Notes under the pieces: generated by a model | What the model saw: only the letters and a program-made list of their open reading frames with translations | Databases searched by the model: none | What the model was told of the DNA's origin: nothing | Origin: a virus | Length of the DNA stretch: 43,901 bases | Reading direction: 5' to 3' (one strand) | Virus record (IMG/VR): IMGVR_UViG_3300033153_008103 | Span: 1 to 43,901 of that record | Shown here: piece by piece, positions 195 through 43,901 of the stretch | Position numbering within the stretch: the first letter of the stretch is position 1 | Layout of the letters: each line of letters begins with the position of its first letter | Translations under genes and position numbers: made by a program

Positions 195-223
195 TTGACT
201 TTTTGTTAATAATTTATTATATT
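195..223 (+). promoter_or_regulatory. Sigma70-like promoter of the RNA island
   Basis: TTGACT (195-200) is followed after exactly 17 bases by TATATT (218-223). The same pair with the same 17-base spacing occurs at 35072-35100 and 42978-43006, and all three share a T-rich stretch right after the -35 box. Predicted transcription would start near 230, at the 5' edge of RNA element A1, so this promoter most likely makes a non-coding transcript. No Shine-Dalgarno site or start codon follows closely. Confidence 0.7.
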
Positions 224-356
224 TAACCGAGAAAGCAAAAATCTCCTTGCTTCAGCCGGGAGATGAATGTAATTGCCTGGGACGGGCTATTGTCGAAAGA
301 CAATATTCTGCAACCAGTTTGCAGGGAGCACTTTCCTTTAGGGAAGTGTAGTTCAC
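222..356 (+). ncRNA. Solo omega-RNA-like element, family A copy 1 (A1)
   Basis: This is a structured, non-coding element of about 135 bp. Hairpins in order are 241-264 (ATCTCC/GGAGAT plus GC/GC, loop TTCA), 289-304 (ATTGTC-GAAA-GACAAT), 308-324 (CTGCAA/TTGCAG) and 329-348 (CACTTTCC-TTTA-GGGAAGTG), then TAGTTCAC. A copy at 11022-11158 is almost identical from the first hairpin to the end. Only two substitutions are seen there, and one changes an A-U pair to G-U. The terminal CTTTAGG hairpin plus TAGTTCAC resembles the right end of IS200/IS605 TnpB elements, where the omega RNA ends and its guide begins (inference from family knowledge). No tnpB is present. Any guide would start at 357 (TTAGTTCTTTAATAGAAT). 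The promoter at 195-223 would start transcription at its 5' edge. Confidence 0.6.
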
Positions 357-382
357 TTAGTTCTTTAATAGAATATTTAGAG

Positions 383-563
383 CAGGTAGTCGTCTAAAGG
401 AAAGACATAGATTTATTTAGTTTTGGTATTTTATATCAAAGTTAAATAATTTCTATCCTGAATGACAAATATTGTATAGAAGTGCATATTCTAATATAAT
501 ATGAGTCACGCACCTAAGCAAGGTGTAAAAAGTAGGGTGCGGGTTCAAATCCCGCCTGCCTGA
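383..563 (+). ncRNA. tRNA-like RNA with an insertion of about 100 bases
   Basis: The 5' half reads as a tRNA: acceptor strand CAGGTAG (383-389), then a 4-bp D-arm GTCT-AAAGGAA-AGAC (392-406) with the usual GG. The 3' half reads as a tRNA too: T-arm GCGGG-TTCAAAT-CCCGC (539-555) and acceptor strand CTGCCTG (556-562), which pairs with 383-389 over 7 bp (one G-U), then A563. In between, a stem-loop GCACC-TAAGCAA-GGTGT (510-526) could be an anticodon arm but lacks U33. About 100 extra bases (408-509) fold into local hairpins (422-440, 451-481, 485-503). It is not a normal tRNA. It could be an interrupted tRNA, a tRNA mimic or a decayed gene. Confidence 0.4.
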
Positions 564-576
564 AATATTTAGAATT

Positions 577-739
577 GGGATGAGATAGTGACAGAATGGT
601 AATGCAGACGAATGTCCTGGTGTGCGGGAAAGTCGTACTGACGAGTACACCTAATCAGTTCTTTGAGACCTGGATAGCTTCCGGCGGTAAAAGAACGAAC
701 AGTCAGTTATAAGGTTCGAGTCCTTATCTATCTCATCCC
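577..739 (+). ncRNA. Second tRNA-like structured RNA with expanded arms
   Basis: A perfect 12-bp inverted repeat, GGGATGAGATAG (577-588) and CTATCTCATCCC (728-739), closes the element. Just inside its 3' strand is a canonical T-arm, TAAGG-TTCGAGT-CCTTA (710-726), and just inside the 5' strand is a D-loop-like segment containing GAATGGTAA. The middle, where an anticodon arm should be, instead folds into two large hairpins: 619-650 (GGTGTGC/GTACACC) and 657-695 (GTTCTTT/AAAGAAC, with an inner CTGG/CCGG stem). A 12-bp closing stem is too long for a tRNA acceptor. The family is not recognised. It may be a tRNA-derived or tRNA-mimic RNA transcribed with A1. Confidence 0.38.
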
Positions 740-754
740 TATAATTTATCCTGA

Positions 755-10932: not shown

Positions 10933-11226
10933 ATGAAAAAAATATTAGGATTTACGTTGATGTTTCTTGTTTTTACATCATTTACAAAAGTTGGAAAAAT
11001 TAAACTTTTCAAGGGGAGAATTTTAACCGAAAAAAAACAGAAATCTCCTTGCTTCAGCCGGGAGATGAATGTAATTGCCTGGGACGGGCTATTGTCGAAA
11101 GACAATATTCTGCAACCAGTTTGCAGGAAGCACTTTCCTTTAGGGGAGTGTAGTTCACTAAAAAATAAAACTAATTTGATAAAAACAATAGAATACATCT
11201 TGGACCCACGGCTGTTGCAGGGGTAA
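10933..11226 (+). CDS. ORF with signal peptide reading into RNA element A2 (likely disrupted gene)
   Basis: ATG 10933 begins MKKILGFTLMFLVFTSFTKV, a typical secretion signal or single membrane helix. After about 30 residues the frame runs into element A2 (from 11022) and continues through it to TAG 11224-11226, 97 residues in all. The part inside A2 is the same in sequence as the untranslated A1 copy, so it is unlikely to be the original C-terminus. The simplest reading is a small lipoprotein or holin-like gene cut by A2. The ribosome binding site is weak. Confidence 0.35.
   Translation: MKKILGFTLMFLVFTSFTKVGKIKLFKGRILTEKKQKSPCFSREMNVIAWDGLLSKDNILQPVCRKHFPLGECSSLKNKTNLIKTIEYILDPRLLQG
11022..11158 (+). 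ncRNA. Solo omega-RNA-like element, family A copy 2 (A2)
   Basis: From the first hairpin to the end it repeats A1 with two substitutions. One lies in a linker. The other turns an A-U pair of the last hairpin into G-U and so keeps the pairing. The leader (TTTAACCGAAAA) is similar but less conserved. It ends TAGTTCAC at 11158, after which any guide would read TAAAAAATAAAACTAATT. Unlike A1 it has no visible promoter of its own and lies in the middle of the virion operon, followed by a terminator at 11225-11275. No tnpB is present. Confidence 0.6.
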
Positions 11227-33480: not shown

Positions 33481-33718
33481 TGAAGTTGTTTATCCTAAAA
33501 TCCAAAAGAAACTCTTTTCTTCAGGGAAGAGATGAATTTTGAAATACCGCAGGAACTGCGGAAATCCACGCCTGTCAGACATGAGCGGCGTTAGCGGCTC
33601 AAGGCAGGAAGCCACTTCCTTTAGGAAGTGGTAGTTCACGACCCTCGTAAATTTAATTACAGAAGGCGGAAAGAAACAAATTGGAGATTTTAAAAACAAG
33701 GAGGAACAAAAAAAATGA
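33480..33718 (+). pseudogene. Small gene apparently split by RNA element B1
   Basis: ATG 33480 overlaps the previous stop (TAATG) and has a ribosome binding site (GAGG), but the frame enters B1 after three codons and stops at 33540-33542. Right after B1, a frame is open from 33635 and reads LVNLITEGGKKQIGDF... to TGA 33716-33718, which overlaps the next start by ATGA. Gene-like spacing on both sides suggests one short gene cut by B1. The two parts cannot be shown to belong together from one sequence. Confidence 0.35.
33488..33639 (+). ncRNA. Solo omega-RNA-like element, family B copy 1 (B1)
   Basis: This is a structured element of 152 bp. Hairpins are CTCTTTTC-TTCA-GGGAAGAG (33512-33531), CCGCAG-GAA-CTGCGG (33547-33561), a branched CGCCTG...GGCAGG region (33569-33607) and CCACTTCC-TTTA-GGAAGTGG (33612-33631), then TAGTTCAC. 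The last part also reads as the end of a TnpB-like protein (SDMSGVSGSRQEATSF), the usual overlap of tnpB 3' ends with their omega RNA. B2 at 38023-38178 is a close copy. Any guide starts at 33640 (GACCCTCGTAAATTTAAT). No tnpB is present. Confidence 0.6.
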
Positions 33719-35071: not shown

Positions 35072-35100
35072 TTGACTTTTTGATTTTAATTGTGTATATT
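35072..35100 (+). promoter_or_regulatory. Promoter of the ParA-like gene
   Basis: TTGACT (35072-35077), 17 bases, TATATT (35095-35100), the same design as at 195-223 and 42978-43006. The predicted start of transcription (about 35106-35108) falls on ATG 35107, so the mRNA would have no leader. The -35 box begins only 9 bases after the stop of the previous gene. Confidence 0.7.
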
Positions 35101-35106
35101 TCCTGT

Positions 35107-35838
35107 ATGATTATAGGATTAGCATCAGGAAAAGGTGGAACAGGAAAATCCACTATTTCAAGTAATTTGGCTTATTATTATTCCAATCAGAAAAAGAAAA
35201 TTTTATTACTCGATATAGACTGGGGTGCTTCAAATTCTTTTTATTTCTTTAATGTTTTTCCAGAAAAGAGTATATATCATTTTCTTTTCAAAAAAAATAA
35301 TTGGAATGACATAAAATATAAAATAAATGACAATTTAGATATTATTACAGCAGGACAAGGGGATGATAAATTAGCAAATATTAATCCCCAAGACAAATCA
35401 AAAATAATAGATGAAATGAAAAAAGATGAAAAAAATTATGATGCTATTATTTTGGATTTGTCTCCGGGTCTTCATTCTAATGTAACAGATTTTTTAAGAT
35501 TATCAAATAAATCCATTATAATAATTACAGCAGATACGAGTGCATTAACTGATGGGTATCATTTGATTAAAATACTTAAAACTAAATTATCAAAAACAGA
35601 AATAGGAGTGATTATAAATACAATATCTGATAACAAGGAATCTTTTGAACAATATAGAATACTTGCTCAAGTATGTTATAATCATTTGAATTTTGTTCCT
35701 AAAAATTATGGAAATTTAAAAAATAGCAAAATAATAAATGATTGTACCAAAAAATATAAATTGTTTATTAAGGAATTTAGAAATTCTGAACCATCAAAAC
35801 AATTAATAGATATAGGAGAAAAATTATGGACGATGTGA
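35107..35838 (+). CDS. ParA/MinD-family ATPase
   Basis: The protein has 243 residues from ATG 35107. An upstream ATG at 35035 is in frame but lies inside the previous gene and before the promoter, so I prefer 35107. It begins with a deviant Walker A SGKGGTGKST (7-16) and has LLDIDWGASN, and later IILDLSPGLHS as Walker B, all typical of ParA/MinD/FlhG ATPases. These ATPases dimerise with ATP and act in DNA partition or positioning. No ParB is recognised nearby. The following gene overlaps by 13 bases and is a membrane transglycosylase. Confidence 0.8.
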   Translation: MIIGLASGKGGTGKSTISSNLAYYYSNQKKKILLLDIDWGASNSFYFFNVFPEKSIYHFLFKKNNWNDIKYKINDNLDIITAGQGDDKLANINPQDKSKIIDEMKKDEKNYDAIILDLSPGLHSNVTDFLRLSNKSIIIITADTSALTDGYHLIKILKTKLSKTEIGVIINTISDNKESFEQYRILAQVCYNHLNFVPKNYGNLKNSKIINDCTKKYKLFIKEFRNSEPSKQLIDIGEKLWTM

Positions 35839-36590: not shown

Positions 36591-36594
36591 AAAT

Positions 36595-37985: not shown

Positions 37986-38072
37986 ATGAATTTTATAATT
38001 TGGATTTTAATAGGATTGATAAGTTTCATCCTAAAATCCAAAAGAAAACTCTTTCCTTCAGGGGAGAGATAA
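37986..38072 (+). CDS. Short membrane peptide running into RNA element B2
   Basis: ATG 37986 behind GGAG encodes MNFIIWILIGLISFILKSKR and ends after 28 residues at TAA 38070-38072. The first half is one membrane helix. From residue 14 the frame lies in element B2. This may be a small membrane protein cut by B2, whose original C-terminus is lost. The peptide may still be made. Confidence 0.4.
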   Translation: MNFIIWILIGLISFILKSKRKLFPSGER

Positions 38073-38178
38073 ATTTTGAAACATACCGTAGGGACTACGG
38101 AAATTTACGCCTGTCAGACATGAGCGGCGTTAGCGGTTCAGGGCAGGAAGCCACTTCCTTTAGGGAGTGGTAGTTCAC
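38023..38178 (+). ncRNA. Solo omega-RNA-like element, family B copy 2 (B2)
   Basis: This is a copy of B1 (156 bp). Hairpins are CTCTTTCC-TTCA-GGGGAGAG (38049-38068), CCGTAG-GGA-CTACGG (38086-38100), and CCACTTCC-TTTA-GGGAGTGG ending before TAGTTCAC at 38178. The second hairpin differs from B1 by a C-G to T-A change on both strands, a compensatory change that keeps the stem. The sequence TTGAT at 38016-38020, just before the element, is the target motif known from some IS200/IS605 elements. Any guide starts at 38179 (AATTTTTGAATTAATTGA). No tnpB is present. Confidence 0.6.
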
Positions 38179-42977: not shown

Positions 42978-43006
42978 TTGACTTTTTTAAATTAATTTAT
43001 TATATT
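42978..43006 (+). promoter_or_regulatory. Promoter of the small Cys-rich gene at 43014
   Basis: TTGACT (42978-42983), 17 bases, TATATT (43001-43006). ATG 43014 lies 8 bases after the -10 box, so the predicted transcript starts at or next to the start codon. Same design as at 195-223 and 35072-35100. Confidence 0.7.
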
Positions 43007-43013
43007 AAACATA

Positions 43014-43229
43014 ATGAAAAAATATTGTAAAAAATGTTTATATGGAGACATCAATTTTTGGGGATATACTGAATGTTATAGATTTAATAATGACTTAGAT
43101 TTTGAAATAACTAAGAATACTGCTGATAGAGAGAAAACCGCCTCATTTTTAAATAAAAATAATGATTGTAAATATTTTGAACATAGAAATTCAATAATAA
43201 GATTTTTTATAAAAATAATAGGAGGATAA
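43014..43229 (+). CDS. Small Cys-rich protein with a promoter at its start
   Basis: The protein has 71 residues. Cysteines lie in YCKKCLYGD (5, 8), at TECYRF (21) and at NDCKYF (52), a likely metal site, followed by a hydrophobic end (IIRFFIKIIGG) that may contact a membrane. The CxxC(L/V)YG start resembles the protein at 15033-15212. There is no Shine-Dalgarno site between the -10 box and ATG, so translation would be leaderless. Function unknown. Confidence 0.6.
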   Translation: MKKYCKKCLYGDINFWGYTECYRFNNDLDFEITKNTADREKTASFLNKNNDCKYFEHRNSIIRFFIKIIGG

Positions 43230-43678: not shown

Positions 43679-43803
43679 TATTTTTTACGGCAGATTTACA
43701 TTTGGGTCATTCAAACATTATAAAATTTTGTAATAGACCATTTAAGGATATAGAAAGTATGAGTCAATCACCCCTGCTTAAAAACAGGGGGCTTGAATCG
43801 TGA
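43675..43803 (+). pseudogene. Metallophosphoesterase gene interrupted by a mobile element
   Basis: A TTG start at 43675 overlaps the previous stop, with GGAG 9 bases upstream. It encodes MIFFTADLHLGHSNIIKFCNR and continues PFKDIESM. This is the start of the small calcineurin-like phosphoesterase family (F.(A/S)D.H.GH.NII..C.RPF.....M), with the metal ligands Asp and His in place. After ATG-A (43759-43762) the family sequence stops and the frame runs through foreign sequence to TGA 43801-43803. A full protein cannot be made unless the element excises. Confidence 0.8.
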
Positions 43804-43901
43804 GATTTAAGGGCAACTGGTTGATTAGGAGGCATTAAATGCAGAAGTTACAAGTAAAGTTAAAGAACGCACTTCGGGATGCTCCACAAGTCCCGAACCC
43901 T
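43763..43901 (+). mobile_element. Left end of an IS200/IS605-superfamily (IscB/HEARO-like) element, partial
   Basis: The sequence breaks the phosphoesterase gene exactly after ATGA and is clearly richer in G+C than the surrounding DNA. It begins GTCAATCACCCCTG and has a hairpin CCCCTG...CAGGGG near 43771-43790 and a second, TTCGGGA/TCCCGAA, near 43873-43897. HEARO elements (the RNA of IscB transposons) are known to insert next to ATGA or GTGA and to carry the RNA upstream of the nuclease gene, which fits. The rest lies outside the window, so the nuclease is not seen. Confidence 0.55.
43839..43901 (+). CDS. ORF start inside the mobile element (partial)
   Basis: ATG 43839 has AGGAGG at a good distance and the frame is open to the edge of the window (MQKLQVKLKNALRDAPQVPN...). 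It could be the N-terminus of the element's protein. It could also be chance coding within the structured RNA, because the hairpin TTCGGGA/TCCCGAA lies inside it. I cannot decide from 21 residues. Confidence 0.3.
   Translation, partial: MQKLQVKLKNALRDAPQVPNP

Follow-up and report, generated by a model that had tools for sequence, protein, structure and literature searches.

Between positions 195 and 739 of a phage genome, a promoter reads into a mobile element that keeps an omega-RNA scaffold (A1), followed by a tRNA-shaped RNA (TL1) and probably by a second one (TL2). We consider it probable that promoter, TL1 and TL2 once formed a leader, that A1 inserted into it later at a TTTAAC target and that the tRNA-shaped RNAs are processed by the host. 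The initial annotation had described the region as an RNA island; its parts were recovered (promoter, omega-RNA scaffold, TL1 and, less certainly, TL2), while their working as one functional unit was not confirmed. What stands out as most unusual in the locus is its pair of tRNA-shaped RNAs.

The window analysed here is the whole of IMG/VR record IMGVR_UViG_3300033153_008103, 43,901 bases long and possibly a fragment. Its gene products include a tail sheath and a baseplate wedge protein, together with a UvsX/RecA-like recombinase and a DnaD-like replication protein, and the ribosome-binding sites are strong. No relatives came up when viral contigs were scanned with its sheath, AAA, RecA and 651-aa proteins, nor with four DNA patterns (A1, A3/A4, TL1 and TL2). 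BLASTN of the island, A1 and A3 against phages and plasmids gave only a weak 45-nt match to Aeromonas phage CC2. With Rfam, the only family recognised in the window and the locus was a normal tRNA-Glu gene (at 36594, with no encoded CCA); a T-arm fragment appeared under tmRNA.

A1 to A4 are best read as core-deleted IS605-type elements that keep an omega-RNA scaffold

A1 (228-356, plus strand) is best read from its sequence as a core-deleted IS605-type element, in which the left-end hairpin is fused to an omega-RNA scaffold that terminates in GTAGTTCAC. We assign it to this class because it is repeated, because the related copies A3 and A4 match a tnpB-linked scaffold, and because it shares their 3' hairpin and TAGTTCAC end. 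Bases 222-357 recur at 11022-11159 with 95-97% identity, which defines the second copy A2 (11022-11158, TTTAAC target included). Repeat comparison and alignment to an autonomous element (L024, see below) revealed two further elements of this kind that form a second subfamily, A3 (33492-33639) and A4 (38028-38178), lying at 33.5 and 38.1 kb and 92% identical to each other; all four are on the plus strand. A3 and A4 follow the plan of A1 and A2: a 5' hairpin containing CTTCAG and GAGATGAAT (GAGATAAAT in A4) is followed by the scaffold hairpins, then by the final hairpin and TAGTTCAC. The omega-RNA-like character that had been claimed for A1 was borne out, the scaffold lying in the right orientation, folding with a z of -4.4 relative to shuffled sequences and sharing its 3' hairpin with the tnpB-linked scaffold. 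This covarying hairpin and the TAGTTCAC end are common to A1-A4 and L024; the hairpin is fully paired in all five sequences, with three pairs changed on both sides. In A1-A4 it forms the conserved 3' stem-loop beside the guide that was described for such RNAs (PMC10278001).

Near-identical copies are thus found at unrelated sites in both subfamilies (A1/A2 and A3/A4), as in the non-autonomous elements known as PATEs. They have terminal palindromes and ends related to those of an autonomous IS605-type element, since the right ends of all copies and the scaffold of A3/A4 align to L024. A fixed short target precedes them on the left and is not duplicated: TTTAAC (222-227, plus strand, TAM-like) adjoins A1 and is also in the left flank of A2, and TTTAT or TTCAT stands before A3 and A4, the flanks being otherwise unrelated. 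A1-A4 contain neither tnpA nor tnpB. TnpB (PF07282) had no match in the 43.9-kb fragment; the record may be incomplete. Beyond the window, no close relatives of A1 were found. Genome scans for its left hairpin returned nothing, and the 11 matches to a looser pattern, none with the 3' hairpin of the element behind it, were discarded as chance.

A search of 299 genomes identified one scaffold that aligns to A3/A4, in the element L024 of a bacterial genome. Positions 925-2541 of L024 form a complete IS200/IS605-type element with a Y1 transposase (Y1_Tnp PF01797, E 2.9e-42) and a TnpB (PF07282 and PF01385, with TnpB structures among the closest solved chains). The A3/A4-like scaffold sits between the tnpB stop codon and the right end of the element, and TTTAAC precedes the left-end hairpin, as for A1 and A2. 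Judged from these alignments, the link to L024 appears strong for A3/A4 and weaker for A1/A2, which resemble it only in the final hairpin, the terminal sequence and the target motif. The TnpB of L024 is a candidate partner nuclease.

Further traces of such elements were seen in the window. Directly after TL2, the segment 745-777 (plus strand) resembles the left end of A3/A4 (TTTAT followed by CCTGAATACAAAAGAAAACTTTTCCTTC; 30/35 identity to A4, E 2e-4 at window size) and has no right end; it is possibly the remnant of another insertion. In a small signal-peptide-like reading frame (10933-11160), A2 lies just a few codons ahead of the stop and alters the end of the frame. On the minus strand, the record ends within the apparent 3' end of another IS605-type element (43760-43901, hairpin CCCCCTG-TTTTT-AAGCAGGGG), which interrupts a metallophosphoesterase-like reading frame.

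A recurrent phage promoter reads into A1

A promoter scan located a sigma-70-type promoter, TTGACT-17-TATATT, at 195-223 on the plus strand, with its -10 box at 218-223, in agreement with the promoter proposed earlier to read into A1. Besides its occurrence at 195, the extended pattern TTGACTTTTT-n-AATTTATTATATTTAAC is found at 42978 with one mismatch, and 100 shuffles contained none. A third, looser copy at 35072 precedes a ParA-like reading frame that begins at 35107. The promoter at 195-223 is therefore one of three similar phage promoters. By analogy with the copies at 42978 and 35072, where an ATG stands 6-7 nt past the -10 box, its transcription likely starts at about 230, at the edge of A1. 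The two copies (42978-43014 and 35072-35107; TTGACTTTTT/TATATT class) are so near their start codons that the messages would be leaderless.

No plus-strand terminator-like site was detected from 1 to 1200, and the scan agreed with the earlier reading that no other good promoter or terminator lies between A1 and TL2. Small reading frames start at about 814 or 885, downstream of TL2. A1, TL1 and TL2 as one transcript is plausible, with continuation into the genes probable, and the island may be an operon leader.

TL1 is a tRNA-shaped RNA with rebuilt arms

TL1 (383-563, plus strand, 181 nt) was detected by a tRNA-pattern scan, by ARAGORN in intron mode and by fold statistics, and is a real feature. 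Its acceptor stem has 7 bp, its D stem 4 bp with GG in the loop and its T stem 5 bp with TTCAAAT; T8 and a discriminator A are also present. The acceptor, D and T arms are perfectly paired, and only TL1, not TL2, combines the tRNA arms with the consensus bases. The anticodon arm is replaced by a 50-nt hairpin (407-456) and the variable arm by a branched domain of 80 nt (457-536). The tRNA-consensus pattern matched once in the window, at TL1, and never in 100 shuffles; with introns allowed, ARAGORN called only TL1 and the normal tRNA-Glu, and nothing in 60 shuffled windows. The minimum free energy of TL1 is 25 kcal/mol better than that of shuffled sequence (z -7.7), and the two inserted domains taken alone reach z -5.0 and -3.9. 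On the T-arm/acceptor side, 24 nt are 96% identical to genuine tRNA-Leu genes. TL1 has no standard anticodon stem (5 bp, 7-nt loop, U33) and is not called by plain ARAGORN; the tRNA covariance model listed no match in 150-900 up to E 10, and the T arm alone appeared under tmRNA, a family of the same clan. CCA is encoded by neither TL1 nor TL2.

TL2 (577-739, plus strand) is probable and makes a looser tRNA-like case. It has a 12-bp end stem, a T arm with TTCGAGT, GG in the D region and a large interior of uncertain fold. End stem and T arm together matched once, against none in 100 shuffles, with a pattern written after seeing TL2; the T arm alone is unremarkable, at about three per shuffled window. 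TL2 as a whole folds with z -3.6 and its interior with z -1.1, no better than shuffled; a good D stem is missing and ARAGORN does not call it. Two tRNA-like RNAs had been annotated, of which TL1 thus has all the tRNA end features and TL2 only part of them. A hammerhead-like motif in TL2 (GAAA, CTGACGA) was dropped, stems I and III being missing. Phage and plasmid BLASTN and viral-contig pattern scans returned no relatives of TL1 or TL2.

Two conventional readings of these RNAs were weighed. They might be decayed tRNA genes without function, an unlikely reading to which the close match of TL1 to tRNA-Leu in its T arm and on the acceptor side, and the lack of relatives showing conservation, nevertheless lend some weight; against it, TL1 pairs perfectly in its tRNA-type arms, its inserts are far more stable than shuffled sequence, and such stems are not built by decay. 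Functional tRNA genes with introns are still harder to accept. ARAGORN in intron mode does read TL1 as a tRNA-Cys with a 103-nt intron, but in the predicted tRNA the anticodon stem is mismatched and the variable loop has 11 nt, no Rfam family matches the insert, and the whole locus does not match the tRNA model. At about 100 nt the insert is also short for a group I intron, TL2 escapes ARAGORN altogether, and the tRNA-Glu of the same phage is a normal gene.

TL1 and the maturation of the A1 guide

According to the initial annotation, the tRNA-like fold behind A1 would be a new route of guide maturation. TL1 starts 26 nt past the end of the A1 scaffold; RNase P, cutting at 382/383, would give a guide of 26 bases, and such a cut may occur. 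Without its leader, the acceptor and T stem of TL1 fold with a probability of 0.9-1.0. In the joint transcript, the probability of the canonical acceptor drops to 0.3, because a shifted pairing (0.5) forms between the TL1 trailer and the leader (357-382, the presumed guide); these probabilities come from an energy model without tertiary contacts and are weak evidence. The A1 3' hairpin and the TL1 D arm have 11 complementary nucleotides, but a pairing of the two was rejected, since the A1 hairpin itself stays at 0.95 or above in the ensemble. The pattern scan and ARAGORN, run over the whole window, found no tRNA-like RNA behind A2, A3 or A4. In a published in vitro study, TnpB is reported to process the 5' but not the 3' sequence and to cut DNA even when the RNA carries 59 nt extra at its 3' end; a related TnpB reportedly uses no more than the 12 proximal nucleotides of the guide (PMC10278001). 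Our literature search, incomplete in coverage, retrieved no published TnpB guide matured by a tRNA-like neighbour.

The proposed route is thus unsupported, A2-A4 having no such neighbour and TnpB reportedly needing no 3' trimming. That TL1 is a dedicated processing device, with RNase P setting the 3' end of a 26-nt A1 guide at 382/383, would fit its distance from the scaffold and the 12-bp helix of acceptor and T stem, of a kind recognised by RNase P; leader-trailer pairing competes with the canonical acceptor, however, about 12 nt of the guide are reportedly used, and A1 is a mobile insertion whose neighbourhood looks accidental. We give this reading very little credence and see no sign that the cut was selected for the guide. 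We also hold it improbable that the phage makes a class of tRNA-shaped RNAs with rebuilt anticodon and variable arms in an operon leader, and that tRNA-processing enzymes release and trim the omega-RNA now lying upstream of them, an arrangement that would be nature's parallel to engineered tRNA-guide RNA arrays. Domestication of A1 into an independent phage guide RNA that serves a nuclease or repressor in trans (cf. TldR and flagellin genes), with a strong promoter selected for it, would account for the promoter exactly at the A1 edge and for the intact scaffold fold. The partner gene is absent from the fragment, though, the first 12 nt of the guide flank have no second site in the window, and the placement is explained simply by the TTTAAC target overlapping the -10 region; we regard domestication as improbable.

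A proposed history of the locus

We prefer an insertion of A1 into an existing leader. For this, the sequence shows that the elements are repeated, that A3/A4 are homologous to a scaffold linked to tnpB, that the copies have a 3' hairpin in common, and that a target motif and tRNA-type stems are present. Because TTTAAC at 222-227 overlaps the -10 box at 218-223, insertion just after this target keeps the promoter whole and directed into the element. Joining the flanks of A1 in silico yields, in a short junction reading, the promoter, a leader of about 25 bases and then TL1, which would be the simplest ancestral state. The ancestral promoter would have driven a leader with TL1 and TL2 ahead of protein genes, until the non-autonomous IS200/IS605-type A1 inserted at TTTAAC between promoter and TL1, whereby transcription would now start at the A1 edge. 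The old TL1 leader (357-382, plus strand) would then follow the scaffold and, by the rule of such elements, serve as guide, matching the uninterrupted allele. We infer that a single RNA is made and cleaved: host RNase P and RNase Z probably excise TL1, and perhaps TL2. Loading of a TnpB is likewise conjectural; one from the host or from an unseen part of the phage could use the A1 guide to cut relatives that lack A1. No A1-less junction was found, nor a relative phage for comparison; with no relatives of A1 outside the window, of TL1 or of TL2, the insertion order and the TL structures therefore rest on one genome.

Comparison with known systems

TL1 resembles a bacterial class II tRNA (tRNA-Leu) in its acceptor, D arm, T arm and arm order, and in the near-identical 24 nt of the T-arm side. 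It differs in having no usable anticodon arm and, within its 181 nt, a 50-nt hairpin and an 80-nt branched domain. Like tmRNA, it has tRNA-like ends around a large insert; unlike tmRNA, it has a D stem, only its T arm matches the model (15.5 bits against a gathering score of 47), and ARAGORN finds no tmRNA. If expressed, TL1 and TL2 would be natural examples of the laboratory tRNA-scaffold trick, possibly acting as decoys or stable carriers, roles that we put forward tentatively.

A1-A4 share with the TnpB omega-RNA (reRNA) of IS200/IS605 elements the left-end hairpin, the scaffold hairpins, the TTTAAC-type target, a guide in the flank, a conserved 3' stem-loop no more than 10 nt from the guide and the TAGTTCAC right end, and A3/A4 moreover align to a tnpB-linked scaffold; in contrast to these elements, they have lost tnpA and tnpB. 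In the palindrome-associated transposable elements (PATEs) of Haloquadratum, IS605-type ends were fused after loss of the core (PMC3119063), and A1-A4 are like them in their several near-identical copies, near-terminal palindromes and fused ends. Unlike those PATEs, A1-A4 reside in a phage and retain the omega-RNA scaffold, so that they would be guide RNAs spreading without a nuclease, here right behind a phage promoter.
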